From Tilletiopsis washingtonensis (taxonomy: Eukaryota; Basidiomycota; Exobasidiomycetes; Entylomatales): a stretch of DNA of 64,000 bases. How positions within the stretch are numbered: the stretch's first letter is position 1; each line of letters opens with the position of its first letter. The notes under the pieces are model-generated. The model had not been told where the DNA came from. It did no database searches and saw only the letters and a program-made list of their open reading frames with translations. This document shows positions 2,399-60,232 of this stretch, one piece after another. The stretch spans positions 357,442 to 421,441 of the forward strand of contig NW_020312012.1 in the NCBI RefSeq assembly GCF_003144115.1. The letters are read 5' to 3'. The position numbers and the translations under genes are program-made.

Positions 2399-4403
2399 GG
2401 CTGCGGAAGCCGATGAGTAGCTGTAGGGACAGGTGGTGATGGTGCAGGACGAGGCGAGGCGGCTCGGCTCGCAGCACGACGGCCCGCTGCTGCATCACAG
2501 CCAGCATCGCCGCCGCAAGCGCCGCGGCGCGCCTCCTCCTGCTGCCGCTCGACACGCGCGCGGCGCGCGGCGCCGCTCAAGCCAACCGCGAACGCTGCGC
2601 AATCTTCGCCTCTCGCCGGCAGCCCGTTTTAACGGCCGTCTGCGTTCTGTCGAACCACTCGGCGACATCTTCGCTCTGTCCCATCGATGCTCACTTCAGC
2701 CCTCACCGTGAGCCGGCAGCTGCCATGAGCCGCGCCAGCAGCCAGGCCTGGGCGAGCCGCGCCAAAAAGTGTTGGACTCGGCGCGCGTGGGCTGACTCCA
2801 CAACACCTCCAGACGCGCGGCGGTCACGTGCGCTTCCGCCACGCCTGGCACAGCCTCGCGCCGGACCCTGGCGCAGGAAGGATCGGCGAGGTGCAGCGGG
2901 CATATGCAGGCCCAGCGAGCGCCGAATGGCCGCTCACGCCGCCGCGGTCCGAAAGGGACCCCCTGAATGGAGGTGCAGCTCCGATGTGAGCGAGGCAAGA
3001 GCATGCCGGATGAGCGGAGGAAAAGATTCGCTGCGAGGGGCCCGTGACGGGCTGCTCTCGACTTGAGCAGGACGGCGTGCCTCGAACGAACGACAGGAGC
3101 TCGTGTTGCGATGGCGCAGGGGCTCTGATGACTCCGGAGCTGCCCATCAGAGCCAGCACCTGCGCCAACGCATGCCTGCGCTGGAAGGTGCGTCGAGGCG
3201 AGGGTGGCAAGGGGCGTCTTTCCCTGCGAGCCAAGCACAAGTGCGAACGATTGGCGCGAGTCCATCGGGCGAGCACTGCCTCGTCGGATGGGCGTACAAT
3301 CCAGCGAGGGCTGTTCTTCGCCGCGAGATCCTGACAACGAGCGTCAGCGAGCTCGTACAGAGTTGGACAGATGCCTGAAGCGCACGTATGACGAAGACGC
3401 TGAACCTCGTCGCGCCAGAGACACTCGGAGGCATCTCTGACGCGCACTCGCCATGCTGCGCAGGCACGAGGCCCTCTCGCATCAGCGCACGAGCGGCAAA
3501 GGCCAGCGTGAGCGGCGTGATGAAGCACATCCTTCTCTTCTCGTCGCGCTCTGCTGCTGGTCATCTGCAGGGCCAGGGCACCCTGACAGCGCCGCAGCGT
3601 GGGCGACGTCGGCTGTCAGGGGCTGATTTCATCAAGAGCGACGTGGGCGCAGCGCAGCGCGTAGAGGACCCAAGGCAGGAGAGCAGCATGCGGGCGCGGC
3701 GTCAGGGTGCAGCGAGCTCGCGGCTGTGGCGCCGCCGCGCGGCAGCGCGCTGCCGCCAGACAGGGGCGCGCGGCTCGCACCCCGCAGCGCTGGGCGGCGG
3801 CCTGCCGCTGTGGACGGCTGCGCGAGGCCCGTCTGGCTGTGAGGCTGCGTGCTGGGCGGCTGGTCCTGCACTGCTGATCCTGCACCTGGCTCGAGATGAG
3901 CTGCCTGCTGATGCCTTGCGTTCATCTGTTGCTCTGCTGTGCGCTGCGGCAGCCCAGCTGGCCTCCACGCTCTGCGTCGGTCGCGTGCGCCGAAGCGCGC
4001 GGCGAGCCTCGCGCCTCGCCGTTACCCGCCGCCGTGCCGCCTCGTCCTCCTTGGCTGCTCTCGCATACCTCCCGCCATTCCTGCCGCCCCCGATCCGCGC
4101 CTGGCCTGCCACGCTTGGCTGCCTCGTCCCGGCTTGGCTCGTGCCTTGGCTGCACCGCGCCTCTCGCCTCGCCGACAGTGCTTGCACCAGAACGCCGCTA
4201 GCCTCTCGCCTGGCAGCCCTCTGACAGTCGACGTGCGGGCTGCTTTGCTGCGCGCTGCCCCGCACCCGCGCGTTGCTCTCGCCTCAGCCGCCATCGGGTC
4301 CGAGCTGTACGTCGCAGCAACAGGCAGCACGCTGCTCCCGACTTACACCCTCACCTCTCAGCACCTATCCTCACGACCGCCACGACCCCGCCCCGCTCCA
4401 TCC
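2399..4403. other. Intergenic, divergent upstream region
   Basis: This 2-kb spacer lies between two divergently transcribed genes. Open frames here are short, overlap one another on both strands and resemble no family. The 400 bases before 4404 are C/T-rich, as expected for the leader of the ArfGAP gene. The frame of that gene stays open upstream to 3939, but its composition there is leader-like. Confidence 0.5.
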
Positions 4404-7400
4404 ATGCTCGTGCCGCACGACTCGCCGGCCGCGGCGGCCGCTGCCGCTGCGGCGCTCGCCTCGCCCGGCCACTCCATCTACCTGGCCTCGACGCGCCTCG
4501 ACGTCCAGACGCTCGTCATCTGCGCGCAGACGAGCATCATCGCTGCCGCTCCGTCATCGCTGGCGGCGCAGCCCACGGCCTCACCGGCTGCGGCACGCTC
4601 GCCCTGCCCCTCGTCCGGCGCAGCCGCCAAGCGTGCCTCGCAGCTAGAGTCGCAGCCGCAGGCCGGCGCAGGACGCACGCCGCGCCTGCGCCCTCGCAGC
4701 GTAGAGCTCGGCTCTCGAGCCCGCGAGGCGCTCCTCGACATCGGCCGAGCAGCTCGCGAGCTGCGCCATGGCGGCACTTCGCGCTCGCGCAACGACGAGG
4801 CCGCTGCTGCTGCATCGGCTTCTGCTGCGTCGCACTCGCAGCTGCCAAACGTCTTCCTCGACGCACAGCCTCGTGCTCGTGATGAGACAGACCCAGACGA
4901 GCGCACGCGCGAGCGTGCCAGTGCTGCCGCTTCACTGGAGGGCCGCCCGGCTGTGGCTGATCAAGTGGTGCGTGTGCGCCGTGTGCTACGGATACGGCCG
5001 CGGCAAGGCACTCCACGGGTCGGCGCCATGCGTGCCGCAGTCTTCTCACGCCTCGAGTCGGACGACGCTTCTGGGCTGTGGGCGCAGCTCGATGCCCCGC
5101 CTTGCGAGCTGGTCGCGGACGAGGAGCCCGCCACTGCCGCCGAGTGCTCGATGGCAGGCCGTGCTGGACGCTTCCAGCCCTCTGATGCGGCCAGCGATGC
5201 TGGAAGTGAGTCAGACGATGAGGAGGAGGAAGGCGCTCTGGACCCAGATCGCATGCTCTTCAAGCTCGAGCCGCCAGCCGCAGCGGCGCGTACTCGCTGG
5301 GCTGCGAATCCGTCTGCGCTTGACGCCGGCACAGTCGAGCAGCACGACGTGATCGTGCGAGTCAGGCTGCGGCTCTCTCCGCCGACGCCTGCCAGCATCT
5401 ACAGCTCCGCGTCGCATCAGCGCACGCCCTCTGGTCCTCGCCCTCGGCGCACATCGCAAGGTGCGCCGCCGTCCGCATACCCAAACATGGCGCAGTCGCC
5501 GCGTCTGCGGCCATCGAGCGGCTCGCGCCAGCTAGCCTTCATCGCCGCTCCCTCATCAGCGCAGCTCGTGCGCGCACTCGAGAGCGATGAGCCGCGAAAC
5601 GTCGAAGGCGTGCACTGCAGCGTCGTGCAGGAGCCTGGGCGCGAGCAGGACTTCGAGTGGGGCTGGTCGCCCTCGGCACTCACGCAGAGCCGCGGCAAGT
5701 ACGCGTGCGCCTTCGTCGAGCGCGAAGAGCGCACTGGAGCATGCACGCTGCTTGCATCCTTTGCCTTCTTCGTCGAGCTGCCGAAGAGCTCTGCCAGTCT
5801 CTCAAGCAGCGCGCAAACGGAGGCGACGAGTGCACCAGCTGCGGTGTCGACCTTCTCCTACCAGCTGTCGAACCACTCAGCGGCGTCACACTCCTTTGCG
5901 GATCTGCGCGGCTCAAGTGACCCTCTTGCTGTCCGTGCACGCCGCATCAGCGGCAGCTTCGGCTCGAACACGCCAGCCACGCCGGCCGATACGCGTGCCA
6001 ACTTTGCGTTCCCTTCGGTGCAGCCAGCCCAGCCGCCAGCTAGCGCCAGCGCTGAGGTTCGCCCGATGCGGCTCGAGCTCGACCAGACGGAGATCTCGCT
6101 CAAGGACGTCGCGGACGACTCGCCGGTCTTTCGCGCTGCGCTGCAGAACCTCGAGCGTAAGACGGCCACGCTCCGCAAGACCGCTAAGACTGTCATTCGC
6201 GCGACGGCAGATGTGCAGGCCCAGCTCAGCGCCTCGCGAGCAGCGCAGGCTGCACTGGATGAGGCGATGCAAGAGCTCTGCTTCAGTGCACCAGGCTCTG
6301 TCGCCGTGCTGATGCGCGACTTCCTCTCCGAGGCGCGCGCTCGGGCGCGTGCGCAAGAGGAGGACGAGGCACGCATGCTCTTCGAGTGCATCGAGCGGCC
6401 TCTGCGCGGCGTGCTCGAGACGTGCCGAGCAACGCAGGAGCAGCACAAGACCTTTGAGCACGAGTCGCGCACGTACTACTCGCAGACGCAAAAGTGGCTC
6501 TCCAGCCGGGCGACCCCTGCTGCTGAGCCCGACACGACGTACGCGGCCAGCGCTATTGGCTTCGACAAGAGCGCCGTCAAGCAAGATCGCCTCGACGAGA
6601 AGCAGAAGCTGCGACAGGCGCGATTCGACCTTGCACGGCTCGAGATCTTCCGCGCCAGTGCAAGACTGCACGGAGGCGAGACGGAGCTGCATCTGGCGTC
6701 GAAGGCGCTCGAGCTGTGCGCCTGGCACGCCAAGCGACCGGCCGGAGGCGACGCAGGGTCGTGGCCGATGACCGACGCCAAGACGCTGCTGAGCAGCTTC
6801 AAGCTCGGCCTGGCTGCGGCTGCAGAGGATTTCCAGACGCGTGACATCGAAATGCGCGAGCGCATCGCGGAGCTCCAGGCCCGCATTGCTCAGCTCGAGA
6901 GCAGTCTCGGCAAGGTCGGCGACGACGGCGACTCTGGCAAAGGGGCTGGCAGTGACGAGCTGGCTCTTAGCGCTGTCACCCGGCAGGCGGGCAACAAGAT
7001 CAAGACAATGATCAGCTCGCTTGGCGGCATCGGCTCTCCGAGTTCGGCGTCGCTCTCGTCTGCGGCACTGGTCCCGAGCGCGAGCATGAACAGCACGACC
7101 GGCAGCTCAGGTCCGGACGGCGAAACGGAGAGCGGCGTTGCAGAGACGCCCACAAAGCCAGGCACTGGCCAGCGCCTTAGGCACACTGTCTCGCTCAAGC
7201 TCAGCGGCGGCGCCTCCGGCCCCAATGGCGTCTCCACGCCCGTCTTCGGTGCGCTGCAGCGTCTTCGCAACAGCCACCACTCGACTGGCCCGAACGATGA
7301 GCGGCGCGGCAGCGTTCCGTCGGCCGCCGTCAGCCTCGACGGCGAGTACGTCGAGGTCAGCCCGACGCGCACGCGCATGGCAAGCGCGCCGCTCGCCGAG

Positions 7401-9843
7401 AACATGCCGGTCAACCCCTTTGAGCCGATGCAAGCACGCTCTCCGGCCTCTCCGCGCCGCGCGCTCAGTCAGTCCAGCACGCAGGCCAGCCCGATGGGCC
7501 GAGCGCGACCAGTCTTCCCGAACCACCGCAGCCCTATGACCACAGACCGCCAGAGCCCTGGCATCAAGCGGTCCGCCTCCGACTGCGCTCGGCTCGGCGA
7601 GCTGAGTCCTCGCGGTCTGCCCACTCGGAGCGCCTCCGGCCTGGGCATCGGCGGCGTGACTCTGCTCGTCGACGAGCCGGAGGACGCGAAGACGCCCATG
7701 CCGTTCCCGCGGAACGTCACTCGCTCTGGCAACCTGTCGCCAGTCGTGGCTCCTGGCCTGGAGCGCAAGAAGGAGGGCCTTCTCTGGGTCCTGAGCAAGC
7801 CGATCGCTGGCGCAGGCGGATCCGATGCGCCCCGCGGCGTCAACCGGGCCACGCACTGGCGCGAGGCCTGGGTCGTGCTGTCCGGCTCCGGCCACCTGGG
7901 CGAGTACGCCGCCTGGCGCGAGTCCAAGATCCTCGAGCCGTCGCAGCCACTCATCGACCTGCGCTTTGCCACGGTGCGCGAGGGGCGCGGCGTCGAGCGG
8001 CGCTTCACCTTCGAGGTGGTCACCCGCGACAGCCGTCGCTTCTTCCAGGCGCCCGACGAGGCGGGCATGCGCAGCTGGATGGCGGCCATCGGTCGCGCGA
8101 TCGAGAGCCTGCTCAACGGCACCAGCAGCGTGCGCCATGTCGAGAAGGTCGCGCGCTCGGTGGACATTGGCGCCATGTCTCCCGACGACTTTGGCGCATC
8201 AGGCCTACGCGCGTTCGGCGGTGCCACGCCGGCTTCCGGCAAGGACGGGCTAGGCCAGTCGCGCGCCTTCAGCCAGAGTCTCACGGACCTCAGCAGCGCC
8301 GCGAGTGCACGTCTCTTTAACCGCATGTCCGACAGCCATCGCACGAGCAAGCGCGACCAGCGCCACGGCGCTGCGGGTGGCGGGCACAGCGAGCACCTCA
8401 GCACGCTCACCGAGAGCATGCCGGGCTCCGCTGGGCTCGTGCCTCAGACGCCCACCCGCCACGCCGGCTTTGAGCGCGGCATCTCCAACAAGACGCCCGT
8501 GTCGGGCTACGTCGCCGACGGCGGCTTCGGCCAGCCTACCAGCGGACCGATCACCATGCTGCCGGCCGCGCTGCGCAGCCAAACGCACCTTGCCCGCCGA
8601 CAGGGCACCGAGATCAGCGACTCGAACTCGTCGTGGAGCGAGATCGAGTCGGAGTACGACGTGCGCATTGCCGAGGCGGTGCACAACTCGTACGGCGGCA
8701 GCAGCGCGATGACGCGTGCAGGAGCGTCGAGCAATGGCAGCTCGGCCTTCAGCCATCGCCGCTCGGGCACGGCCGACTCTCCCATCATGAGCCGGCAGAC
8801 GTCGGCGACTGGCAGCAACGGCCACGTCCGCCAGCGCATCGAGCGCATCAACTCGAGCAACAGCACCAAGGTCACGCGCGCCGCCGAGGTCGCTCGCATC
8901 TCGCGCCTGCCGGAGAACGCCAGCTGTGCCGACTGCCGTGCGCCAGGTACGTGATGCTGCAGATCTGTGTGTGCCGCCGATGCTGACAGCTGCTGCAACA
9001 GACCCGCGCTGGGCCTCATGGGCGCTCAACGGACAGCCGTGCTGCATCTTCATCTGCATCGCCTGCTCGGGTGTCCACCGCAGCCTGGGCGTGCACATCA
9101 GCAAGGTGAAGAGCGTCGATCTCGACGACTGGACGCCCGAGCAGCTCGACGCCGCGCGCAGCTGGGGCAACGAGCGCGCCAACGCCTACTACGAGCACTC
9201 GCGCCCGAGCGGCGGCGCTACGCCGAGCTCCACGCGCGACAAGAGCTTCTGGCAGGACAAGTATGTGCAGAAGATCTGGGCGCGGCCGGGCCCGCTCGAG
9301 CCTGCGCTGCCGTCTAGCCCGTCCAGCCGACCTGCGCAGGTGCGCCGCTCGTCGTACATGATGCCCAGCGGCAGTCCGATGCGCGTCGAGGAGGAGGATC
9401 CGATGCTGATGTTCGACGCCACGCCTCGCGGCACCGCGCCGCCGCTCGACGAGCAGCGTGAGGAGGCGGTGCGCCGCGTCTCGAGCAAGATGCACTCGCC
9501 TGTGCCGTTCGTCACGCTGCTCGGCGCCCAGGACGACGAAGACGAGCGAGGCTCGCGGAGCTCAAGCGACACGTTTGCCTCGGCTGAGCGCGCCGAGACT
9601 GCCGACGAGCACCTGTCGCCTGCCGAGGCCATGGACGACGCGCGACGCATGTCCTCCTCCAGCTCCGTCAGCGCTGCCTCGTCGGTGTCGCCCGGCCCGC
9701 CCAGCGCCAAGGTCTTTACGTCGGCGCCGTGGGCTGCATCGCCTCCGCTCGTCGCCACCACGCCGGCCACGCCGCCGCGCACGCACAGCCGTGTCCAGCA
9801 GCCGCACCACACCCCGACCATGACCTTGGCGCTCGCTCGATGA
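4404..9843 (+). CDS. BAR-PH-ArfGAP protein (ACAP/ASAP-like Arf GTPase-activating protein)
   Basis: Two exons, 4404-8946 and 9002-9843, encode about 1794 residues. The intron (GTACGT...CAACAG) splits the ArfGAP zinc finger, and joining the exons restores CADC...WASW...CIACSGVHRSLG. Order: long Ser/Pro/Ala-rich N-terminus; a helical BAR-like region at ~570-840; a PH domain at ~1120-1240 (starts KKEGLLWVLSKP, ends in the usual Trp-containing helix SWMAAIGRAIESLL); ArfGAP at ~1490-1600 with the catalytic Arg in GVHRSLG; and a disordered tail. The family stimulates GTP hydrolysis on Arf at curved Golgi, endosomal or plasma membranes, and S. pombe Cnt5/Cnt6 share this architecture. The finger has five more residues between its Cys pairs than the usual CX2CX16CX2C. 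The start at 4404 is preferred over upstream ATGs because coding character begins there. Confidence 0.88.
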
Positions 9844-21391: not shown

Positions 21392-24300
21392 CTATGCGCC
21401 ATTCGACACTGGCGGAAAGAGCGTGCCGCCGAGGCCTTCCGCAGCGACGACGCCGAGGGTCTCCTGATCCTGGAGTCAGCGTCAGCGAAGCCATCCACTG
21501 CTGTTCTCAGCGCTGCTCACCTCCTTGTCCGAGTCGCTGCAGCCGTCTTCCATGCTCGAGTCTTGGTGTGCGGCGGAGCTTGGCGGGCTGGAGAAGGCTG
21601 TTGAGGACTTCGAGCGGCTCGCCTCCGTCAAGACGGTCGTCGTTGAGCGGCCGTCTGCGTTGCTCGACTCGCCCGTGTAGCCATTGACACCGCTGCCCTC
21701 GGTCGCGGCACTGTCCTGGCGACGCAGCTGCGCGAGACCGGCATGTCGGCGGCTGGCGTCGTCCTGCGCAAGCGAGCTGTAGTGCTGCTCGGAGATGCCG
21801 GCCTGCGCAGAAGACGGCCGAGACGACTGATCGACGTCGTTCGGCACGCCGTTGGCGCCAAGCACGTACGACTCCCAGTTCTGCGCCTTGCGCACACGCA
21901 TGTTGCTCGCGTCGACCTCGAGGACGCTCGAGTACAGGAGTGTATCGCGCACGAGCGCCAGGTCTGACGTGAGGCGCTGTACGCGGTTGAAGCCGGCGAC
22001 CGTGCTGATCGAGACCCAGCCGTGCGCGTCCATGCACTGCCGCAGAAAGAAGTCGCCCTGCAGGTTGCGCTCGCTGAAGTAGAACTCGATCTGCTTGAGC
22101 AGCTGGTGCGTCGGTGCGTCGATTCCTGGCACGCGCGGAGACCCGGCCGGCGAATTGACGAATGCGGGAGCGCGAGTCGGCGGTGGCTGCTGCCACTCGC
22201 CGTGCGCGAGCGAAGCAGGCGCCATGCCCTGCGGCTGAAAGACCGGCAGAGCATGCGGCTGGCCGCCGTGCAGCCAGAACGGAAGCTGCGCGCCCGTCGC
22301 GTAGGAGCCCGAGCCTGGGCTGCCACGACTTGACGGGGCACCCTGGCTGTCCAGATCCGCGCCATCGGCGCCGGGGCCGGGCATGTACGCGCCGTCGTTG
22401 CGTGAGCCCGAGAAGACGTCTCCGCCGGCGTGGCGACCTCCGCGGCCGCGGCCACGGCTCCCGCGTCCACGCGCACTGTGCCGCACCGGGCTGTGCGAGG
22501 CGTGCCAGGAAGGATCGCCGTTCGGCACGAGGAAGTCGGTCGCACGCGTAGGCGAGAACGAGCCGTCCTTGTTGAGTCGCTGTGGCGGTGGAGGCACGAA
22601 CGGGAATGGCGACGGCGGTCCCGGGCTGCCCGACGTCCAACGCATTGGCGGGAACATGGCAGGCAGCTCCGACAGCGCCATCGGCATCAGCGGCGAGGAG
22701 AAAGGCAGCGCCACAGGTGCCGACGCGTCTGTTTCGCCGTTGAGTGCCGGCGAGGCGCTCACTGCATCGGGCGCGCCGCTCGAGTCGGCTGCCTCGGCAG
22801 GTGGTGCGCCAGGCGCGGACAGTGACGCCTCCGCCTCGCGTGCCTGGCCTTGTCCCGACGCTAAAACGCTGTCCGCTGCGGCGCTGGGAGCGCTCGCGTC
22901 TTGACGAGAGGCCTTGCTGCTCTCCTTGGTGCCTGACTTCGCATCCTGCTTGTCGGCCTCGGGCCGCTTCTCGCCGCCCGCTGCGCCCTTGTCCGCTCGA
23001 GTCTTGGCGGCCTTCTTCGGGTGCGGCGATGTTGCCGACGAGGCGTCCTTGCTCGCTGCGTCCTTCCCAGACGTCTTGCGCCCGCTCGCAGGCAAGGGAC
23101 TCGCGTGCGTGATGGTGGGCACGATGGAGATCCACTGCTTGCCCTTCTTGCCCTTGTCACCCGCACCCTTGGCGACCTGCACGTCGAGGCCCTCGAGGCC
23201 CTTCTCTGTCGCCGCTGGCCGCTCGCTGCTACTATTCTCGCCGGTGCTGACAGACTCCGCCCGCGGCTTGCTTCGAGCAGCAGTCTTGACAGTGGCGTCA
23301 AGAGGACTCGGCCATGACTCGCTGTCTGCGAGCACGCTTGCTGCGGCCTGCGCACGCCGAGCCTTGCTCTTGGACGTGGCAGCAGGCGCGGCAGGTTTGA
23401 CCGCGCCGCCCGATGATGTGCTGTCTGCGCGCCTGCGGGCGGAGCTCTCTGCGACAGTCGACGAAGCCGGCGCAGCTGAAGATGGGACCGAGGCTGCCGC
23501 AGTCTCGGCGGCTTCGACGCTTGACGAGACACCAGAGGCGGAGAGTGCTACCTCGTCCTGATGATCATCGCCAGCGGCGCCGTTCACGCTCGTGTTTGCC
23601 TTCCGCCAAACGCTGTGCGCCTCAGCGCTGGTCGGCGTTCCGGTGGCTGATGGTTCTTCGGCAGTCGAGGGCAGCGATGGCGGCATCGACACGACCGGCG
23701 CGGGCTGCAGGCCAGCTCCGATGCCCATCTCCGCTGAGCTTTCCTGCAGCGCCGGCACGAACGTCGGCATGTTCTGCCCGCCATTGAGCAGGTGAATGCG
23801 GTCGAGCCACGCGTTGTCGTACGCCGGCCCTGTCGGAGCTCTGGCGAGCGAGAGTGGCGACCGCGGCACGAACGGAAGCGTGCTCTCAGCTATTGAGCGC
23901 GTTATTGGCGAGTCGCCTTGCAGACTAGCGCCGGTACTGCTCCGTCGTTCAGCAGGCTTTTGCGCACTCGGTCCGGCTTGCGCAGGAGCAGAAGCGGAGG
24001 TCGCAGGCGCTGCTGCGCGCCGCTCCTTCGAACTGTCCTCCTCGCCGACTGATGAGCTTCTCGACTCGGCAGCGCCAGGCCGCGACGCGCCACTGGGGGC
24101 GCTGCCATTACTGCGAGTCGAAGCCGGGGGCTGAGCCACCGCAGCGGCCTTGGCACTCGCCGGGGCACTGGACGAAGCAGAAGTGCTCGCGTTCCCTGTA
24201 CTCGTCGCTGGTGGCGCAGTCGTGCTCACCGGCTTCTTCTGCTCGACCGGCGCCTTACTGCCAGCGGCAGCGGCAGTGGAGGTCTCCTGCCGGGACTCTG

Positions 24301-24811
24301 CCGACTTGTCCGCCAGCTGCTTCCTTCTCTGTTCCCAGACATTCACGCCTGACGCAGCAGCTACGGGCTGCGGCCGCTGCGCAAGGGCGTCTGAGCGCAG
24401 GGCCGCGCTGGCGGCAGTGGGCGACTGCGCAGCAGTCTTGCCTTGCGAGGCGCTGGCACTAGCCGCTGGAGCCGACGCGGCTGCGATCGTAGATGACGCT
24501 GCCGCGGGGTGCGCTGATGGTGTCGAGCTCGAGCTCGTGCTGTTCGGCGCATCGGCGCGCCCGTTGGCGCTCTTGTGCGCTGTGACGACCCTCCATGCGC
24601 CACTGCTACTCGAAGCAGGCTTGGGCGGCGCAGGCGCCGCTGGTGGCGGACTCAGCTGCGTGAGCGTCGGAGTGCTGCTGCTTGTCGAGCTGCGTGCCGC
24701 AGCCGAAGAGTCTGCGCTGCTGCGCGAGCTGTCCTCCTTCGCACGCCGTAATCGCTCAGCGTACGAGAGCGCCGAGCCCTTGCCCGACGCGGCAGAAGAC
24801 CACGCGGACAT
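21392..24811 (-). CDS. La-motif RNA-binding protein (LARP1/Slf1-Sro9-like)
   Basis: Exon 1 is 21521-24811 and a proposed exon 2 is 21392-21469; 1122 residues in all. Residues ~890-980 form a La motif (HQLLKQIEFYFSERNLQGDF, then a helix with FNRVQRLTSDLALVRDTL). The rest is low-complexity Ser/Ala/Pro sequence with an Arg/Gly stretch (RGRGSRGRGRGGR, ~790). The family binds 5'-TOP or poly(A)-proximal mRNA and tunes translation of ribosomal-protein messages, a TOR-linked role. The start at 24811 (MSAWSSAASGKGSALSYAER) is preferred to 24961 because the upstream stretch is not conserved in character. The last intron (51 nt, GTGAGC...CTCCAG with GCTGAC branch) extends the tail by 25 residues ending PPVSNGA. 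If it is unspliced, the frame ends at 21482 instead. Confidence 0.85.
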
Positions 24812-25839
24812 GCTCGCGAGCGAGAAGTCTGCTCGTGCTGGCGCAGGTGCAACGCTTCCTGCCTGCACAGCACTGCAGCTGACGTGCCTGTCTGCGCAGT
24901 CCGAAGGTTCGGCGAAAGGAAGCCAGTGGCTAGAGCAGCTCGTCAGTGGTTGCCTTCTCAAATGCTAGCCGAATGAAGCGCAAGGCAGCAATAAAGCAGC
25001 GACTTCAGCGAGCAACAGAGCAGAGACAGCTCGACCGAGCCTGCGAAGCTACAGCACGAGCTCGACGCCACCACTGCGGTTTTCAGCACAGACCGGACGT
25101 GCCTACTGCCCCCCCCCCCCCCCAAGACAGCCCGCCAGCACAGTGGCAAGCGGTGCCGCGCCAACATGCGCATGTATGCGGAGAGACTCGAGCCGCGGCC
25201 TGCGCACTCACGCTTGTCGTCGCCTTGCGACGTCCCAGACTGCCCAGCCCCTAGTCGCGCAAGCAGCACAGGCCGCGAGGGTGCCAGTGAGCGGCGCGGA
25301 GCTCGAATGTCAGGGAGGAGCGCTGAGGACGGCTGTGCGTTCTGCACGAGCAGCGGCGCAGGTCGGACGAGTGGGCCGTGAGTGTGCGAGATGCGAGAGT
25401 CAAGAGGAGACGGGCTGCGGGACGTGGTGGTGGAGAGGTCGCTCGATGATGCGGCGTCAGGGCGCCGGCCTCGTCGCGGCTGCGCTAGTCGACGCTGATG
25501 GACGTGTGAGTGCCTTCAAGGACTCGGCCGCCGCGGCCGCCGCCGCCGCGCGCCGCGCGCCGCGCCGCGTGCATTTACGCGCTCTGCGGCTGCGCATGAT
25601 GAGCTGCGCCTTCTTCTTGTCCGACCTCGAGTGATCGCCCTTGTTTGTCTACCACCAGCTCGCCGCACGCCGGCCTTCAAGAGACACGCCAAGATTCCCG
25701 CACTGCTCATGCACACGCGCGGGGGTTGCCGCTGCAAGTCATGGAAGGGCGCGGCCCAATGGACCGGGTCCAGCATCTCATTCTTCTTGTCTGGCATCTG
25801 TCTCCGACGGCACAGCTGTCGGCGTGTGCCGCACATCGC
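24812..25839. other. Intergenic, upstream of LARP-type gene
   Basis: Promoter and leader of the LARP-type gene followed by the 3' region of the cutinase-like gene. It holds a 15-base C homopolymer and a CCG/GCC-rich stretch near 25529-25568. No coding region is supported. Confidence 0.4.
25109..25123 (+). repeat. Poly(C) tract, 15 bases
   Basis: Fifteen consecutive C about 300 bases upstream of the LARP-type start codon, read directly from the sequence. It may be polymorphic or a sequencing-length artefact. Confidence 0.9.
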
Positions 25840-28479: not shown

Positions 28480-30270
28480 TTAGAAGGAGACCCGGAAGCC
28501 CTTGTCCATGTTGACGGACAGGTGGTAGTCGCCGCGGGTGCTTGGCGCGCGGGCCAGGTCCTCGCTGCTGTCGGCAGTGACGAGCGTGCGGCTCGTCGGG
28601 CTCTGCGTGGGCGACGAGTGGCTGGGCAGCACGGGCGTGTCGATGCTCTGCACGCTGTCCGGCACGCCGCTGATGTGGCTGTCGCGAGCGTCGGACGCGG
28701 CAAAGGGACGCGTCGGCGCGCTGAGCTCGGCGAAGAGCGCAGCGTCGGAGACGGGCGAGGCCGCGGCGTGGGCGTCGGAGAAGGGCGAGGCGTCGGGCAG
28801 CACCGGCGAGCTGACGATGGGCAGCGAGTACGGGTCCACAGACGAGCGGGCGGCCGAGGAGTAGTGCTTCAGGGTGTCCTGGAGGTCCTCAAGAACCGGC
28901 ACTGGCTTGCGCTGCACGTGCAGCGTCGAGGCCGAGCTGACGCTGCGCTGCAGAGCAGCTGCCTCTGCTGCATCCGACTCCTCCTGCGCGGCGCTCGTGT
29001 GGCTCGTGATGCTGCTAGGCCGGACGTTGGGCGCGGTGCTGTAGCTGTCGAAGCGGCTGTGGCCGTGTGCGGCGCCAGAGAGGGCCGAGTCGCGAGCGAG
29101 GGACGAGTTGTTGTGCTGGTAGAGACCGCCGGTCACGCCAAGGTCGCCACCGACGATCGAGTCCGAAAAGGCAGAGTTGCGAGCGGCTGCCTCGGTGCCC
29201 TCGGGGATGTGGGCGAACTGGCCGGGGCTGAGGACGCGGGCGTCCGGCGAGTTGGTCGCGCTGAAGTCGACCCACTCTGCGCCGTCGGTGCCGGGCAGCA
29301 CGTCGCCGGCATCCGCACGGCGCATGCCAGCCTGGGCGCCCTGCGACGAGAGGCCGGTGTGCTGGCGCGGGTCGAATGGCGACGAAACCGTGCGCATGTG
29401 TCCGCCCGACGCGGCCGCGCCGCCGCCAAGGAACTTCTCCTTCCACGAGCCGCCGGCGCCGCTGCTCTTCTCGTTGAGCGAGTCGGCACGCGACGCGCGG
29501 CGACGCAGGTACAGCACCACGGCGGCAGCGATGACGAGCATCGGCACGACGATGGCAGCGGCAATGCCGCCGGACGAGACGCCGTTGTGCTGCGAGCTGC
29601 TGCTCGTGTCGGCCGAAGCAGAGCCCAGACCGGCAGCGACGCTGGTCGACGCTGCAGCTGCTGCGCTGGCGCTGCTCATCGCGGCGCTGCTGGCAACGAT
29701 GGAAGAGGCGATCTCCGCCGCAGACGAGGTGAACGCGTCTGCAGACGACGAAGGAAGCGCGGCGACGGAGGAGTCGACGGGCGTGCTGCTGCTGGTGAAG
29801 AGCGTCGTGTCGACGCACGACGAGTCGCCCGAGTCTGTGACGTAGAATGGCGCCGAGTAGGCCGTCACGTCCTGGTTCTCGACGATGGCGATCCAGCGGT
29901 ACGCGCCGGGCGCCACGTACGTGTTCCAGGTGTACGACTGGCGCTCCAGCGGCTGCGCCAGGGCAATGCTGACCGTCGCGACATCGCGCTGGGCGAGTGC
30001 GGTGCGGCGCTGCACCTTGTGAAAGCGGCCGCCGGCGGCGTTTGTGCGGCGCACCACGGAACCGGAGTCAAGCTGCTGCAGGCCAATGTCCAGCGCCGTG
30101 GCAGCGCTGTTCAGGCCGGAGTACGCCCACCTGATCGTGGCGATCTTGCACGTGTACGACGGGCCTGCCTGGATCGCGAGCATGGGCGCGGAGTCACTCG
30201 AGGTGCTCTGCGACGTCGTGCCCGTCTCCAGCGGATCGGGCGTGAACGAGACCGAGTATGTGTCGGACAT
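28480..30270 (-). CDS. Single-pass membrane protein with Ser-rich stalk
   Basis: A single exon of 596 residues. Residues ~1-155 form a beta-rich N-terminal region (TCKIATIRWAYSGL, ERQSYTWNTYVAPGAYRWIA), then comes a Ser/Thr/Ala-rich stalk (~155-228). A transmembrane helix sits at ~231-253 (GGIAAAIVVPMLVIAAAVVL), followed by the basic stop-transfer YLRRRASR. The rest is a cytoplasmic Ser-rich tail. This resembles basidiomycete Mid2/WSC-like cell-surface proteins in layout, but no N-terminal signal peptide is present. A stop lies just upstream of the ATG in the spliced leader frame, so no earlier start is available. A 62-nt intron (30282-30343, GTGAGT...GCGCAG) probably lies in the 5' untranslated region. 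Function unknown; wall sensing is only a suggestion. Confidence 0.7.
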   Translation of the reverse strand: MSDTYSVSFTPDPLETGTTSQSTSSDSAPMLAIQAGPSYTCKIATIRWAYSGLNSAATALDIGLQQLDSGSVVRRTNAAGGRFHKVQRRTALAQRDVATVSIALAQPLERQSYTWNTYVAPGAYRWIAIVENQDVTAYSAPFYVTDSGDSSCVDTTLFTSSSTPVDSSVAALPSSSADAFTSSAAEIASSIVASSAAMSSASAAAAASTSVAAGLGSASADTSSSSQHNGVSSGGIAAAIVVPMLVIAAAVVLYLRRRASRADSLNEKSSGAGGSWKEKFLGGGAAASGGHMRTVSSPFDPRQHTGLSSQGAQAGMRRADAGDVLPGTDGAEWVDFSATNSPDARVLSPGQFAHIPEGTEAAARNSAFSDSIVGGDLGVTGGLYQHNNSSLARDSALSGAAHGHSRFDSYSTAPNVRPSSITSHTSAAQEESDAAEAAALQRSVSSASTLHVQRKPVPVLEDLQDTLKHYSSAARSSVDPYSLPIVSSPVLPDASPFSDAHAAASPVSDAALFAELSAPTRPFAASDARDSHISGVPDSVQSIDTPVLPSHSSPTQSPTSRTLVTADSSEDLARAPSTRGDYHLSVNMDKGFRVSF

Positions 30271-31634
30271 GGTGGTGGAGGCTGCGCAGCGATGATCGCC
30301 TCAGCGTGGGCCCGGCGCTGGCGCAAGGCGCGGCACGACTCACGAGGGTGTGTGGGTCAGGAAGGAAGCCAGCGCAGAGCCGGCGACGCGAGCGAGAGGG
30401 AAAGAGAAGAGCGCTGTGCAGCGATCTGACGCAGAAACGACAGGTTGCTGCGGTCGGGCGGCAGCTGCGCGGACTGAGGCGGGACGAGGCGGCGAGCGCG
30501 ACGTGTGAGGGCGAGGCGAGGGGATGGGAGGCGCGCGCAGGACGCGGAAGGGAGTGGAGAGAGGAGAGCGAGTGATGGGTCGAGAAGGAAGGAGCGATCA
30601 GCCAGGATCGCAAGGAGACTGAGACGGAGAGACTTGAGAGGCGAGAGGCGGAGCGGTGCGTTCGCGGAACGGCTGCGGAGTGGACGGTACGGGTCTTGGT
30701 GTGAGGGTGCGGGAGAGCCAAGGCGCCGGCGGCTGAGAACAAGCCAAGAGGCGGCGCTGCGCGGGGCGAGGCGTGTCTCTGAGGCGCGGCGGAGCGGCCA
30801 CACAGGCGACGTGCCCGAGACAGCGCAAGCGCATGCCGGAAGCGGCACGGCGCGGCGGCAGCCCCCTCGGCACGGCGGCACCGCCAGCGCGCGCCACAAC
30901 ACATTTCTTGTATTCGGCGCGCCCCGCCAGCTGTAGTCGCACATACAACAAAGGACCCGCGCGCAGGTCTCGCTGGGGTTCACTCGAAGCCCGACGCCGC
31001 AACCGCTGCTTGCGGCGGCGGAGGCCCATCTCGACGCCTCGCGCTCCCGACGCATGCGACTCGGCCGCGAGCATGATCGACAAGGCATGCCGCCGCAGAG
31101 GCCGTCTCGTGTTGCTCGAGCTTGTCGGCGCTCGCATGACGAGAGAGCGCGGCGGCGAGCCCTTCATGATGAGGAGGGCGCGGGCGCAGGCACGCACTAC
31201 GCCGGCCTCTGCAAGGGGCGCCGGCGCGGCGCAGCACCGCAGCCGCTGCGCTCGGCACCTCGGCGCCGCGTCACTTCACCCTCAGCTCCTCCAAGAACTC
31301 GCAACGTCCGTGCGAGCTCTGCAACTTCGCATGCGACGGTTCCGGGAACGTTCGTCGATGGGCGGAGGCTGCGGCTGCGGCCCATCTTGCGGCTTACGGA
31401 CGTACGGCACGGCAGCGCAGAGTTGGCGTGGGAGCAGCGCCGCCTCCGCCGCATCCGTCTGCGATGCGCCGCTCCGCCGCCCGCAGCGCCACTCCGCCGC
31501 CCACGCGGCCGCCATGTCTCAGCTGCTTCGATTCGACTTTTACGTGTGACAAGGAGAACATAGTGTAATGAGAAAGAGCAGCGGCCGGAGAACAAGCAAA
31601 TCGAGCAGGCACGGCCGCAAGGCCCGGCGCGCGC
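30271..31634. other. Intergenic, leader and promoter of membrane-protein gene
   Basis: On the minus strand the first ~600 bases upstream of 30270 are rich in CTCTC tracts, as in a long leader, and contain the proposed leader intron 30282-30343. The remaining part up to 31634 is the 3' region of the urea transporter gene. No coding region is supported. Confidence 0.45.
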
Positions 31635-33902
31635 TCAGCTGCTTGTCTCGCCGCTGGGCGAGACGGGCACCTTTTCGTCGTGGCCGATGCTGCTGCTGCT
31701 GCTTGCCGCGGGCGACGGCGTCGGCGAGTGCCGGCCGCGCAGCCGGTTGAGCACGCCGGAGCCGACGAGCCGCAGCAGCGGAATACCCTCGTAGAGCGGG
31801 TAGAGGCCCACGGCCACGAAGGCCAGCACCGACCACGCAAAGGAGACCCACACCCAGCCTCCGAAGAAGCTCCGGGGGAAGATGTAGTCGCGGTACAGGC
31901 TCAGCGGCCAGATGAGCATGAAGACCACTGCAGGGGCGTGGAGTCAGCGAAGCAGCAGCAGATGCAGGCAAGTCCGCGACGCACCGAAGATCGTGCCGCT
32001 GGAAATGCCAGCGAGGATGGTCCACTTGCGCAGCGACGAGGCGTTGTAGCGCGAGTCGTTCTCGATCTCTTCGAGCTCCTTGGCGTCGGCCGAGTCGTTG
32101 TTGCGCGCGTCCCACAGCGACTGCCAGGTGAAGTCTCCGGGGAAGAACAGCACGCCGACCGTGCAAATCACCAGGCCGGTCGCGATGGCCGCGGTGAAGG
32201 CGTAGATCTGCGCAGTAGGTGAGCGAGGGTACGTAGCAGGCCGCACTCGAGAAACTCACGTTGACGTCCTGGCTTCCAAGCGCCGCGATGGTGATGCCGC
32301 CCTCAAGGCGACGCGCAAGGCCAAGCCAGGTGCCGAGACCGGCGGCGAAGCTGATCCAGATGCCCGGGAAGGCGACCCATTTCGGCGTGCGCTCGGACCA
32401 GAAGCTGAAGATCATCTGCGGAAGCGCGGCAGTCGACCAGACACCGGTGCTGCAATCAAAGGGTAAGCATAGGACTAGGCATCCGCCTCGGGCAGCCACT
32501 CACATGTTGTAGAGGAGGCCGAGGTCCACGCCAACGCCATGCAGGAGCGATCCAAACGCGGCCATGAAGATTGTGAAGCCAACGACCACGTAGCGCTGCA
32601 CGCGGAGGATGTCGTCCGGCGTGGCCGACTTCTTGAGGTAGGTCTTGTAGACGTCGTAGCCGCCGATGGACGAGACGGCGATGAGCTGTGCGCTGATGGC
32701 GCTCGTCGAGGACATGAACATGAGCAGCAGCACGGCCGCCGAGCCTCCGGAGCCAAGCACGGCGTTGGCGGCGTACGGCAGCACCAGGCCGGCGCTGACC
32801 TCGCCGGCCGTCATGCGGCGCGGGTAGGTCGGGAAGCTCGTCGACGTCGTCTCGAGTGCGAGGGCAGCCAGGCCGGCCGTCGTGGCGAGGGCCCAGGGAA
32901 TCGAGAACCAGGAGAGCGAGCCGATGAGGTAGCCTGGCACCACGGCGCTCGGGCCGGCGGCGAGGCCCTTCTGGTGGAACGAGGCGTCGTTGAAGACGAC
33001 ACCAGTGTACTCGAGGAACGAGAGCCAGCCGAACTGGATGGCGCCGCGGCTCTTGAGCGTCGTGTAGCTGCCCTGGTAGTTCTCCGACGGGTTGCGCGCC
33101 GCAGCGTCCTGCAAGAGCTGCCACATGCGGCCCGAGCTGCCGATCTGCGAGCCGGTGCTGTACGTGACAATGAAGAGCACGAAGAGGATGATGAAGATGA
33201 TGACGGTGTGCAGATAGTCGGCGAGAATCGTGCCACGCAGGCCGGTGCGCAGCGTGTAGGCCGCGACCGCGAGCGGCAGCAGCCAGAGGCTCGCGTAGAT
33301 GTTGACGTCCGTGATCGAGTTGACGGCCGCGGCAGCTCCGACGAGCACGGAGGAGACGACGAGGATGTTCGTCGAGAGCGCGAAGAACAGGAACGAGAGG
33401 TGGCCGGCGGGGCCGTAGCGGCGGTGAAGGAGCTCGAGGTGCGTGTGCAGCTGCGGGACCTTGGCCTTGAAGCGCACCGCCATGAGCGAAAAGAGCGCCA
33501 CCTGGGACATGTTACCTGCGCCGTAGATCAGAGCGCCAGCGAGACCTTGCGAGTAGGCAACCGTGCACGAGGAGAGACTGTGTAGCGCGTCAGACAGAGG
33601 CAGCGAGGCGTCACGCGCGGCATCCACTCACAGCGTCACGGACCACGTCCAGCCCGAGACGGCACCGGCGGCCGTCAGACCGACGCCCAGCGAGCGACTG
33701 GCAATGGCATACTCGGCCGACGTCTGCTTGACTCCACCGAAGCGGTGCAGCGAGCCTGAGATGCCGACGACGACCTGCTCAGGCGCGTCAGACGTGTCGC
33801 GGGCTGCTGCAGCTTGCAACTCACAATGGCGAAGAAGGCGCCGAGGCCGATGATGACGCCGTAGCCGACGCCCTGAGACAGAGGAGCTGCAGGAGAGTCC
33901 AT
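31635..33902 (-). CDS. DUR3: DUR3-type urea/H+ symporter (SSS family)
   Basis: Six exons in order (33825-33902, 33632-33774, 32504-33577, 32260-32449, 31985-32207, 31635-31927) encode 666 residues, the usual DUR3 length. About 15 hydrophobic segments are visible. Family landmarks are FGGVKQTSAEYAIASRSLGV, SGWTWSVTLLSSCTVAYSQG, ILADYLHTVIIFIILFVLF, SSTSAISAQLIAVSSI and the late FTWQSLWDARNND stretch. The family imports urea, and in yeast also polyamines, across the plasma membrane with proton or sodium coupling. DUR3 genes are usually repressed by good nitrogen sources; no GATA cluster was examined here. The C-terminal tail is Ser-rich and cytoplasmic (HSPTPSPAASSSSS), a possible phosphoregulation site. 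Confidence 0.9.
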
Positions 33903-52834: not shown

Positions 52835-53248
52835 GAGGCGCCGGAGCAAGCATCAAAGAGGGAGAGAGGCGGAGAGGCGCTGGGAGGCGCATAGGCAATC
52901 ACCATGAGATGCGCACAGCCACTCGCTTTCTCGCAGCCTCGGATGACGCAGAGATGATGATTGGCAGTGGTTGCTCGTGTAGTACACAGGTGCACGAGAG
53001 AGTAGAGAGAGGTAGGGCGGGTGAGGGTTACATGGTGTTCGGGCGGCATTCAGGTGGACTGGGCGGACAGATGGAGATTACGCGACGGCATTGGGTTGAA
53101 GAGCGGCGGGCGACAGCGACGTGACCGAGGAGGAAGAGATTGTATGCGGAGAGACGAGACGGGAGGGAAAGCGAGATTGAGAGCTCGCACGTCGAAGCGA
53201 AGGCACCTGCAAGGCAGAGCTGCAGAGAGCGTGTTGGCGGCGACAGCA
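52835..53248. other. Convergent 3' intergenic region
   Basis: About 410 bases between the stops of CCT6 (+) and the 4E-BP-like gene (-). Purine-rich on the + strand; nothing else is visible. Confidence 0.4.
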
Positions 53249-54122
53249 TCAGATGTCCATGGCGAACTGCTCGCCGCCTGCCTGTGCTCGCGGCGGGCTG
53301 CTGCTGTTGGGCTTTGCAGCCGTCGGCGATGTCGGGCCCGTAGGTCGCTGCGCGGAGATGCCGCTTGGCGCCGTCGAGCCGCCGGCAGATGGGTAGCGGC
53401 GCGAGCTCGGACTGACAGGCCCGCTGAAGTTGAATGCGGAGCCCGGCGAGCGCGGCGTTGCGCCCAGAGGCGAGCGCGAAGCGGGCGGCGAAGAGCCAGC
53501 GGCGCTGCTGCCAGCGCCGATGTTCATGGCGCGGTTGAGAGCGGCAGTGTTGCGCAGACTGCTCTTCTCAGGCGAGCGGCCCAGAGAGGTGCCGGCTGCG
53601 CCGAAGGAGGAGGAGAACGCTGCTGCATCTCCCGAGCCAGGCGAGCGGGAGATCTCAGACGGGATGCCAGAGGCGCCCAGTCCGCGTGGAGGCGTGGCGG
53701 AGAGCGGAGAAGAGGCGAGGGCGAGGAGCTGCTCGCGCGAGTAGACGATGCGCGTGCTGCGAGTGAGGTGTCAGATGGGGGTTCAGGAGTGGCAGGCAGC
53801 GCCGTGGCTGGCAGCGGCCATGCTTGCGAGCATGCGAGAGAGAGCCACGTCCTGCCACAGAGCAGACGCTATCTGGCAGCCCGAGCGCCATGCTCAGGCT
53901 CGCCCACCTCGCTGCACCTATTGCCAGCCAGAGTTCCACTCGCGCGCCCTCCGCAGCCCCTCTGCACCCGTGCTGCGCCCTCACTCACCCGCCGGGCGTG
54001 GTGCCGTAAAGATGTGCGCCTCCCGGCGTCGCCGCGAGGCCGTCGTGGCGGCGGTTGTGCGCGGCTAGCAGCTCCTGCTGCGTGGCGGCGCGCGGACGGA
54101 TGGGCAATGGCGAGGAGGACAT
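53249..54122 (-). CDS. eIF4E-binding protein (4E-BP-like) with TOS motif
   Basis: Two exons in order (53989-54122, 53249-53756) encode 213 residues. The join gives [30 protein letters not shown], then ATPPRGL. From memory, human 4E-BP1 reads [24 protein letters not shown] followed by TKTPPRDLP at the same place. The eIF4E-binding motif YxxxxL-phi is YSREQLL. Both N-terminal TPGG sites (4E-BP1 Thr37/Thr46), the SP site (Ser65) and the TPP site (Thr70) have counterparts. The protein ends GGEQFAMDI, matching the 4E-BP1 TOS motif FEMDI used to dock Raptor. A Ser/Pro-rich linker of ~120 residues makes it longer than the animal proteins (~118-120). Expected role: TORC1-controlled block of cap-dependent translation. 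The single intron is 232 nt. Confidence 0.82.
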
Positions 54123-54820
54123 GGCTGGCTCGGGCGTTGCGGGTGGTGGTGGAGAGGAGGGAAGTGGGGCACGGACGACGCTGATCCCCGAGGTGACGTG
54201 GCCGGCTCGAGATGAGGCTGTGTGGTGCGAGAGATTGCCCGCGTGGTGTGGGTCCAGAGCGGCCTTTGGAGGCGGAGGCGCAGCGAAGCGTCTCGCGGCT
54301 GGCGAGCTGAGCTGGACGCCGCATGCCGAGTGCCGAGGCGGCGCGGCGCGGCGGCGCACGGCGTATCGTGTGGAGCAGAGCAGCGCTATCGCGTGCCAGC
54401 GGCAGCGGCTCACGGCACCCAGCACGCAGCGCTCGCCCTCGTCAGGGGCACCGGCCCGGCGCCAGGCCGTGTTTCTCGGGCCGCCAGCTGGACGTGCTTC
54501 GTCACGCAACGCAGCTCGGCAGTATGCAGCGGCGGCAGCACCTCATCTCGCCCACACCTCGAGGCGCTGAAAGGCGCCGTGGGTGAGCCCGTACCGCTGC
54601 CGGCGTGCGGGGTCGAGTCGAGTGACGCAACGCTGGGCCTCCTCATGCACCGCTGGTCACGTGACCGCGCACGGACGTAGGCGCCTTGCCTCGCCTTGGG
54701 GTCCAGCTCCTGCTCTCCACCTCACCTGCTTCCATCGAGCGTGTCCGCAAGTACGGCTCGCATCGCTCTCGGACAAGGCGTGCACCGGCAGTCTGGCCTC
54801 TGGTGCCCGTAGCGGCAGCC
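54123..54820. other. Shared divergent region, 4E-BP-like gene and DCTN6
   Basis: About 700 bases between the two start codons. No TATA box or family-like open frame is visible. Confidence 0.4.
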
Positions 54821-55834: not shown

Positions 55835-58131
55835 CTAGCCAGCGGCGAGCGACGGCTCTTCGTCTGGCAGTTCAAACGGCGTGCCGTTGTCCTGCGGCAA
55901 AGTGCGTCAGTCGCCGCTTTGCGACTTCAAGTGGCTGTGCGCTCGACTCACATCGATGGCAAATGGGATCCACGTGCGCCAGCCGAGCTCGGGCACGGCG
56001 GGCTCAGCAGGCTCGGCGTCCGGCTCAGGCTTGATCAGAGGTGCGGCGCGTGGCGGCATCGGCTGCGAGGCGGGCCGTCCCACCATCTGTGCGAAACTGC
56101 GTGCGAGAGGTGGAGGAAGGACGCGGTCAGCACTCGGCAAGGGAAATAGCCTCAGCGCCAGTGGCCGACTCCTCACGTCTGACTGCGCGGTCCAGCTCGA
56201 AAGAGAGTGACTCGGTTCGTCTCCTTGCCCAGTGCGCTTCCTCGTTCAGCGTACAGCCAAGCCGCCTCCGCCTCGTCTCGCGGCACGATCTGCATCTCTT
56301 CCGCGTCGACACCGAGCACCAGCGGCGCCAGCAGCTGCGGCACCAGCCGGGCGATGGCGTCCGGGTTGCGAAAGTTGGAGAGCACTCCGCCAGGCGCAAA
56401 CATCTTGCTTGCCATCTGATTCGTCGCCAGCACGGCAACGTTGGCGGCTCGCGCCCGTGCAGCGAAAGAAGCGATGCTGGCGAAGGCCTGCGTGCGGGCA
56501 GTGCGCTGGGCTGATGTATCGCCGGGCGGGAACCGCAGAGGCGAAGAGAGAGTGTCGATCACGATGAGCGCACAGCGCGCCGGCAGACGTCCCGCGTATG
56601 GAGCGGCGATGGTGGGCGGAAAGGCGAGGAAGAAGTGTGCCAGCAGAGCGGCGAGAGAGAGGACCCGAGAGATGTGGAGTCCTTGAAGAACAGCTCGGAG
56701 CAGGCCTTTGCGACTGGCGTCTGCATCTGCGTCTGCGGAGGATGCCCCATCCATGACTACGTCGCCATCTGCTGCGAGGCTGGACTCGATGACCTCGCTC
56801 TCGGGCAGCGCGGCAACTTGCGACACAGCAGCCTGGCGCAGCCGAGCGGCGATCAAGGCACCCTCGGTGTCTAGAGCGCATCGAGTGTGAGCAGACCAGT
56901 CGCGGGAGATACGACAGCTTCTCGACTCACCGAGAAGCCACACCTGCTCGGCTGTCTTCGCCGCGCTCTCCCACGTGTCAGGGCTCGCATCATCCGCCTC
57001 GCCTTCCGACCTCGCTCGCAACCGCGCCCTGACTCGCCGCAGACTATCCAGTCTGCAGCGCACCGCCGCCGCCACTGCGAGCACCGTCTTGCCCGAGCCT
57101 GGCGGACCCGCAATCTCGAGTGCGCCGCCAGGACGCAGGCCGATGCGCCGCTGCTCGTCGGCCGAGTACGGACGCAGCGCAGTAGGAAACGGCAGCGGCG
57201 CCAGCAGGGCGTCGAGGGAGGGCAGGTGTGTCGAGAGACGTTCTCGTGGCACATGTCGCGAGGGTGCAGTGGGCGGACGAGGCAGTGCTGGAGAGGAGAG
57301 CGATGCCGGCAGTGCTGGAGAAGCGTGCGGCGTCTCTGCTGGCGGCACCGGTGGTGGCAGCGCTGCAGGTGGCTCGACGACTGCCGGCGCAGGCATGAGG
57401 AGTGACTCGACCGCCGGCAACGGTGTGCGCTGAGATGGTGCCGCCGCGAGCGCAGCTGCTGCTGCGAGCTGGCGCTCCGAGTTCGCTTGCTCTGCGGCTG
57501 CTGGCTGCATATGCGCCGCCTGTACGCTCAGCGACACCTGCCGACGAGTGGGACTGGCGGAACGACGCGGCAACGGCGGCGGTGGAGGCGGAGGCTCTGC
57601 AACGAGGCGCACGGGCTGGAGTGCGCTGAGCGCCATCAGCGGGCGAGGCGATGCCGCTGGAGCGCCGCCGCTGACAGCTCGCGGACTCGGCGAGGAAGGC
57701 GGTGCGAGCCGCGGTGGTGCTGCGCCATGTACGCCAGGCACGCCTGCTGGCGAGCGTCGCACAGCGCTGCTCTCGCCGCGCCGCCCAGACTGACTGCTGC
57801 CGACGGCGGCGAGCAGCGATGCCTGCGAGAGCACATGCGAAGAGATGCCCATGGGCGACGCTTGCTGGCTAGCTGGGCCGCCGCGCGAAGGCGACGCAGC
57901 GGGCATCTGCGGCGATGCCGGCGGTGCAAATTGCCGGCCCTCGAACGCGGGCGCCACCAGGCTGGTGCGCTGCCTCTTCTGCGCCACGCCGGGCCGCGAA
58001 GGCGTCATGCTCGACAGCGGCGCCATCGATGAGGAGGGAGCATCGCTGAGCGACGAGCTGGGCACCGTTGTGCCGCTGCCACTTGCCCGCCCACGCGCAG
58101 CCGAGCCAGAGCCGCTCGTTGGCGCCGTCAT
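55835..58131 (-). CDS. RecA-fold ATPase, Rad51 paralogue-like (Rad55/Rad57/XRCC type)
   Basis: Four exons in order (56931-58131, 56177-56870, 55952-56096, 55835-55891) encode 698 residues. The first ~310 residues are Ser/Pro/Ala-rich and disordered. The ATPase begins RIGLRPGGALEIAGPPGSGK, with the Walker A motif GPPGSGKT at ~342-349. Splicing restores LLDTEGALIAARL, the counterpart of the Rad51 DTEG strand. Walker B is ALIVIDTLSS near residue 500, and VAVLATNQMASKMF resembles the Rad51 loop-1 strand. The C-terminus carries the conserved AWLYAERGSALGKETNRVTL segment followed by ~75 acidic and Pro-rich residues. Rad51 paralogues help load Rad51 in homologous recombination. Which paralogue this is (Rad55, Rad57, or the Ustilago Rec2 type) cannot be decided by eye. 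Confidence 0.75.
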
Positions 58132-58633
58132 GGCTGCAGCAGCGAGACGCTGGCTGGGTGGGCGTACACGGCGCCGCCGCGAGTGCACATGCGATGCTGC
58201 GCGAGTCGGGCGGGTGCAGACGCTGTTGGGTGAGAGAGGGCGGCGCGAGGATGGGGAGCTGCGGCAAGAAGGCACGACGCGTGAGGCGAGCATCCAACAC
58301 GCGTCAGGATCGGATGCGCGCCGGCAGCGAGAGGATGTGGAGGCAGGCGGGCACAGCAGCGCCGCAGCAGCGAGCCTGCGTCTCGGCCACCACCCCCCTC
58401 CCTCGCTTCCCGGCTGCATCACGCTCACTCGCGACGTACAAAGTAAAAGGCTAGATTAGAGTAAAAAGGTGACAGCTGAAGAAGTAGAAAGGAGAAGGCT
58501 ACAGATGCTGTGCGGTGGGACAGCGTCGGACAAGGAATGCGTGTGGTGTCTCGCTGCGAAGACGGGGTAACGGATGTGGGGTGGCCGAGAACAAGAGAGG
58601 GTAGGCAAGGGCCGGCGAGGACGCTGCACTTGC
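58132..58633. other. Intergenic, upstream of Rad51-paralogue-like gene
   Basis: 500 bases between the ATPase start and the MAP kinase stop (both minus). The end nearest the kinase gene should hold its 3' untranslated region. No coding region is supported. Confidence 0.4.
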
Positions 58634-60127
<1,494 letters not shown>

Positions 60128-60232
60128 GATGGAGAGCGTGAGGCAGAGCGGGAGGAGAGGAAGGAGGGGGGATGAGGGCATGCGTCAGCTAAGTTGCTCG
60201 AACAGCGGGGCAAAGCGCAGACGCAGCGTCGT

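Follow-up and report, generated by a model that had tools for sequence, protein, structure and literature searches.

A predicted 4E-BP homologue with a C-terminal TOS-like motif in the basidiomycete Tilletiopsis washingtonensis

Analysis of the window, the whole stretch of 64,000 nucleotides of Tilletiopsis washingtonensis DNA studied here, revealed a predicted gene on the minus strand (54122..53249) for a product of 213 amino acids. Judged from its sequence, this product appears to be a true homologue of the animal translational repressor 4E-BP, a member of the PF05456 family, which would represent a variant of the known architecture and not a new kind of protein. We propose that the gene encodes an eIF4E repressor that is released by TORC1 and was inherited from the common ancestor of animals and fungi. 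To this reading we assign a probability of roughly 0.7. 4E-BP is one of the major branches through which the nutrient-sensing TOR kinase governs protein synthesis. The pairing of TPGG turns with a TOS motif is a feature of 4E-BP proteins.

Gene structure and coding potential

The gene is predicted to consist of two exons, which reproduces the coordinates and the structure proposed in an earlier note on this DNA. Exon 1 (53989..54122, minus strand) starts with an ATG at 54122 and codes for residues 1-44 and for two bases of codon 45. It is followed by a phase 2 intron of 232 nt (53757..53988, minus strand), which begins with GTGAGT, carries CTGAC at 53774..53770 and ends with CAG. Exon 2 (53249..53756, minus strand) includes the stop codon at 53251..53249. 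The start codon is the first ATG of its open frame, an in-frame stop being located upstream at 54545, and reading without splicing runs into a stop immediately past exon 1. Two introns of the neighbouring CCT6 gene were checked for comparison. They are 49 and 64 nt long and show GTGCGT or GTGAGT, CTGAC and CAG, and the splice signals of the 4E-BP intron match this type. In human EIF4EBP1 an intron also seems to lie near the TPGG/TR junction, a parallel on which no argument is based here.

Coding potential was measured by a codon score trained on the conserved genes of the window. Exon 2 reached +22.6 in the claimed frame, compared with -18.6 to -54.1 in the five others, and a sliding window of 30 codons placed this frame first among the six at all seven positions. 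The score of exon 1 was only +2.2. The GC content at third codon positions is 0.84 in exon 1 and 0.77 in exon 2, compared with 0.93 in the catalase gene and 0.90 in CCT6.

An open frame of 392 codons on the plus strand (53006-54184) runs antisense across the entire 4E-BP locus. Coding on this strand was rejected because exon 2 gave negative scores in each of the three plus-strand frames, and the open frame is probably a by-product of high GC. No tRNA or Rfam genes were reported in the window, with the tRNA scan on its bacterial setting. Direct repeat families of at least 18 nt were not found around the 4E-BP gene; four imperfect inverted repeat pairs occur there, without evident meaning.

Assignment to the 4E-BP family

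The membership in the 4E-BP family that the earlier note had suggested was borne out by hmmscan. PF05456 (eIF_4EBP) was matched with an E value of 5.8e-15 and 55.7 bits, the cut-off being 24, and it was the only Pfam family found in the 213-aa protein up to E 1, at which level no eIF4G domain or other family was seen. The match spans profile positions 31-81 of 117, and the TOS-like motif lies outside of it. The pieces of human 4E-BP1 scored 149.7 against the same model. Among PDB sequences, six were matched up to E 10, five of them 4E-BP1 and one 4E-BP2 (best E 2.6e-9, weakest E 2). A local alignment with the human 4E-BP1 pieces gave a score of 128, and 2000 shuffles gave a mean of 37 (SD 6) with a maximum of 88.

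The motifs themselves were also compared with chance expectation. None of 1,000,000 shuffles that keep the composition reproduced the ordered motif core, and 14 of 1,000,000 ended in a TOS. Across the six frames of the window, TPGG occurs three times, and the pair in the 4E-BP gene accounts for two of these occurrences. In the window, 648 six-frame ORFs closed by a stop reach 60 aa or more, and one of them, the 4E-BP gene, has a TOS-like end. The last 20 residues (aligned through AGGE-QF-MD) reach a score with the human tail that was equalled by 1 of 20,000 shuffles.

Relatives of the protein were also searched for in viral and prokaryotic collections. With the single sequence as query, 27 pattern matches were obtained in viral contigs, none of which was confirmed, and with an alignment 5 matches were obtained in viral contigs and 35 in prokaryote genomes, again with none confirmed. 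Since only viral and prokaryotic sequences were covered, the misses are uninformative on fungi.

Motif anatomy in comparison with human 4E-BP1

All motifs are encoded on the minus strand and follow each other in the order of 4E-BP1, just as the earlier note had read them. The first phospho-turn, TPGG followed by A (54018..54029), contains T32 as the counterpart of human T37. The second one, TPGG followed by T (53989..53999), contains T42 as the counterpart of human T46, and the intron splits its last glycine codon. A predicted canonical eIF4E-binding motif, YSREQLL, covers residues 50-56 (53723..53743). The putative phosphosites SP and TPP (53687..53710) provide S61 and T66, which correspond to human S65 and T70. 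At the very end of the protein stands the TOS-like FAMDI (residues 209-213, 53252..53266), the counterpart of human FEMDI, and these five residues fit the TOS motif as the earlier note had proposed.

The spacing of the core is close to that of the human protein. From T to T, Y, S and T the steps are 10, 8, 11 and 5 residues here and 9, 8, 11 and 5 in human 4E-BP1, so that S61 and T66 are spaced from Y50 exactly as in human, whereas one additional residue lies between the two TPGG turns. Between TPGG and TPPR, the product is identical to human 4E-BP1 at 22 of 37 aligned positions. Two further differences from the human protein concern the first turn, which reads TPGGA, and position 2 of the TOS-like motif, where A replaces E.

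The claim of the earlier note that all TOR-linked motifs are present holds in part. It stands for the TOS and the phosphosites, which are backed by their spacing and by the shuffles, but not for two other elements. RAIP is an N-terminal motif of mammalian 4E-BP1 that does not occur in every member, and it was not counted here as defining for the 4E-BP family. It is not present as such in the product, where IRPRAAT is aligned with SRAIPAT. At the second, lateral eIF4E site (IPG-V), the positions of human L75 and V81 are taken by L and I and that of I78 falls into a gap, with MAFFT placing the segment elsewhere. This second site is only partly recognisable and seems to be shortened and weakened.

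For the first turn, work on 4E-BP2 is of relevance. There, phosphorylation of T37 and T46, which lie in TPGGT turns, is described to drive folding, by which the binding helix becomes partly hidden, and TPGGA put into 4E-BP2 as the first turn is described to disturb folding little (PMC7305185).

The Ser/Pro-rich linker

Between the core and the C-terminal motif lies a linker rich in Ser, Pro, Ala and Gly (residues 69-203; 53282..53686, minus strand), most of which has no counterpart in human 4E-BP1. These four amino acids make up 66% of its 135 residues, and nine further [ST]P sites are found within it. The distance from TPP to the TOS-like motif is 143 residues, compared with 44 in human 4E-BP1. 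Because of the linker, the protein with its 213 aa is longer than a 4E-BP1 chain in PDB (118 aa) and than 4E-BPs usually are (about 100-120 aa), a size that the profile does not demand.

The possibility that the linker is a missed intron was rejected. None of the seven GT positions of exon 2 fits a GTRNGN donor, and a CTRAY branch site is missing as well, though 16 acceptor-like YAG triplets occur. With neither donor nor branch site in exon 2, a missed intron is not evident, and the long linker pointed out in the earlier note seems to be real as far as can be judged from the DNA. A counterpart of the human S101 segment within the linker, for which MAFFT suggests SPEK, was rejected as well: in the comparison, which covered residues 84-200, a fraction of 0.48 of 20,000 shuffles reached the best score of the linker. 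The linker is presumably disordered, as is probably the spliced protein altogether.

Proposed function and the link to TORC1

By analogy with the human proteins, we expect the product to bind eIF4E, to dock to Raptor, to be phosphorylated by TORC1 and to undergo a fold switch. In its unphosphorylated state, the YSREQLL helix would lie on the dorsal face of eIF4E and exclude eIF4G, whereby cap-dependent initiation would be reduced. When nutrients are present, TORC1 would dock at the C-terminal FAMDI via Raptor/Kog1 and phosphorylate T32 and T42, and the TPGG turns would then fold over the binding helix. S61 and T66 would be phosphorylated next, and eIF4E would be released. The long linker could serve as a flexible tether and may accept extra proline-directed phosphorylation.

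A part of this model could fail although the homology is correct. The protein might be a 4E-BP by descent that binds eIF4E and is no longer a direct target of TORC1, with FAMDI no longer functioning in Raptor docking and the SP and TP sites serving CDK or MAP kinases. The altered position 2 of the TOS, the nine extra [ST]P sites of the long linker and the missing RAIP would fit such a protein. We nevertheless consider it rather unlikely, as FAMDI is located exactly at the C-terminus, where a TOS arises in just 14 of 1,000,000 shuffles, and as the tail resembles the human one (1 of 20,000 shuffles) even though the linker from residue 84 to 200 is unlike the human segment tried. The C-terminus of human 4E-BP1 has been described to double as a PDZ ligand for PP1-Neurabin (PMC12185105). 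Neurabin is not known from fungi; if it is absent from them, the conserved tail of the protein described here would be better accounted for by Raptor docking.

Origin of the gene and of the surrounding DNA

Inheritance from a common ancestor of animals and fungi competes with two other explanations for the presence of the gene. The first one is horizontal transfer from an animal. It would agree with reviews that treat the 4E-BP1 type as metazoan and p20/Caf20 of yeast as unrelated (PMC7139794, PMC11447835). However, the GC content of the locus (0.667) is very near to that of the window (0.672), and the splice signals are like those of the neighbouring gene. The long linker and the altered first turn also weakly suggest a long divergence. 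Transfer from an animal is very unlikely in our view.

The second explanation is that the DNA is not fungal and comes from a eukaryote close to animals, in which a 4E-BP would be less surprising. For pieces of CCT6, RPL12, GCP2 and a UAP56-like helicase, animal entries in PDB give better scores than those of ascomycetes. The catalase gives a mixed picture. PDB entry 1a4e, catalase A of S. cerevisiae, scores 313.9 bits and falls below the mammalian catalases, which reach about 337 to 343.5 bits, whereas the top two matches are the yeast catalases 6rjn (389.5 bits) and 6rjr (350.3 bits). Against a non-fungal source, a MAP kinase piece matches FUS3 of yeast best, with 131.6 bits compared with 106.4 bits for the entries that follow, MAPK1/ERK2 and a chimera of it (among the best 60 of 302 matches). 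The window further contains a urea symporter of the DUR3 type (three of three PDB rows), and DUR3 is not known from animals. The two CCT6 introns with CTGAC are short (49 and 64 nt), and the frame with a La domain shows no second Pfam domain, both of which also speak for a fungus. Taken together, the neighbouring genes fit a fungus outside the ascomycete yeasts as far as their sequences indicate, and we give very little credence to a non-fungal source.

A chance assembly of motifs by a wishful splice, without any real gene, could be imagined in view of the low-complexity exon rich in Ser, Pro, Ala and Gly, the antisense frame that is open throughout and the weak codon signal of exon 1, but it is strongly disfavoured by the PF05456 match (E 5.8e-15), the absence of the core from 1,000,000 shuffles, the codon signal of exon 2 and the canonical splice sites. 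Vertical inheritance of a genuine 4E-BP gene by a fungus is the reading followed below.

Relation to fungal eIF4E-binding proteins and evolutionary meaning

According to the earlier note, the yeast eIF4E-binding proteins Caf20 and Eap1 have nothing in common with 4E-BP1 beyond the YxxxxL-phi motif. For Caf20/p20 this agrees with the published descriptions, which report no sequence homology outside this motif (PMC11447835, PMC7139794). In one review, p20/Caf20 and the metazoan 4E-BPs are termed convergent and the 4E-BP1 type is treated as metazoan (PMC7139794). Eap1, against the usual view, is called a homologue of 4E-BP in another text (PMC6749009), and 4E-BP is counted among the TORC1 effectors of opisthokonts generally in a further one (PMC12467227).

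The protein described here presumably resembles Caf20 and Eap1 in that it would bind eIF4E through YxxxxL-phi in competition with eIF4G. Judged by Pfam membership, it would differ from them in being homologous to 4E-BP1, with PF05456 as its sole Pfam family up to E 1. The YxxxxL-phi motif is also shared with eIF4G and other eIF4E binders of the canonical type, whereas no eIF4G domain was found in the product up to E 1.

Caf20 is reported to be a direct substrate of yeast TORC1 (PMC11447835), so a link from TORC1 to an eIF4E-binding protein is already known in fungi. What would be new is a fungal TORC1-linked eIF4E-binding protein that is homologous to 4E-BP and bears a TOS. In S. cerevisiae, rapamycin was described to leave the binding of Caf20 to eIF4E and of eIF4E to eIF4G unchanged (PMC11447835), and for this reason the animal mechanism is not to be assumed for fungi. 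In its RAPTOR section, a review from 2017 states that TOS motifs are unreported in fungi (PMC5745459). In the accessible text of a survey of fungal Tor, 4E-BP occurs only in the reference list (PMC2997006), and by word search of the accessible text it is absent from a survey of fungal TORC1 (PMC11836306). A description of a fungal PF05456 protein was not found in the accessible open-licence literature; unremarked database entries may well exist.

We lean slightly towards the following scenario. The TORC1-to-4E-BP switch, with its docking by TOS and its phosphorylation-driven folding of the TPGG turns, would predate animals. It would have been present in the ancestor of fungi and animals, kept in at least the fungal lineage studied here and lost in those yeasts on which the textbook picture is based, where Caf20 and the like, which are unrelated, took over. 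In the fungal form, the long linker would separate docking from the switch. If this is true, a fungal homologue that ends in a TOS would place the origin of the circuit earlier than the split of animals and fungi. It would also provide a candidate substrate with a TOS in fungi, for which none was reported according to the RAPTOR section mentioned above (PMC5745459). With its long linker, altered first turn and FAMDI, the protein would in addition be a natural variant to probe what Raptor docking and the phosphorylation-dependent fold need.

Other genes in the window

Several other genes of the window were inspected. On the plus strand, BAR (under the Pfam cut-off), PH and ArfGap domains follow each other at 3912-9840, which is probably one large ACAP-like gene. 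A frame of 1160 codons (21485-24964, minus strand) carries a La domain towards its C-terminus, preceded by a long N-terminal part rich in Ser and Ala, and no other Pfam domain was found in it. It is perhaps a fungal protein of the LARP1/Sro9 type, which would put another gene connected with translation some 28 kb away from the 4E-BP gene. The frame at 28483-30300 (minus strand, 606 aa) has no Pfam match; it contains a part rich in Ser, a single apparent transmembrane segment and a long Ser/Pro-rich tail, in which respect its sequence resembles a fungal cell-wall sensor. The fragment of the DUR3 urea-proton symporter lies at 32503-33627 (minus strand).

Closer to the 4E-BP gene, a frame of 760 aa (56176-58455, minus strand) carries the P-loop GPPGSGKT and gives AAA matches below threshold only; from its sequence it looks like a diverged RecA relative of the Rad55/Rad57 type. 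Next to it, a MAP kinase gene in at least three pieces is located at 58637-60184 on the minus strand, and among the matches listed FUS3 of yeast is the closest to its N-terminal piece.
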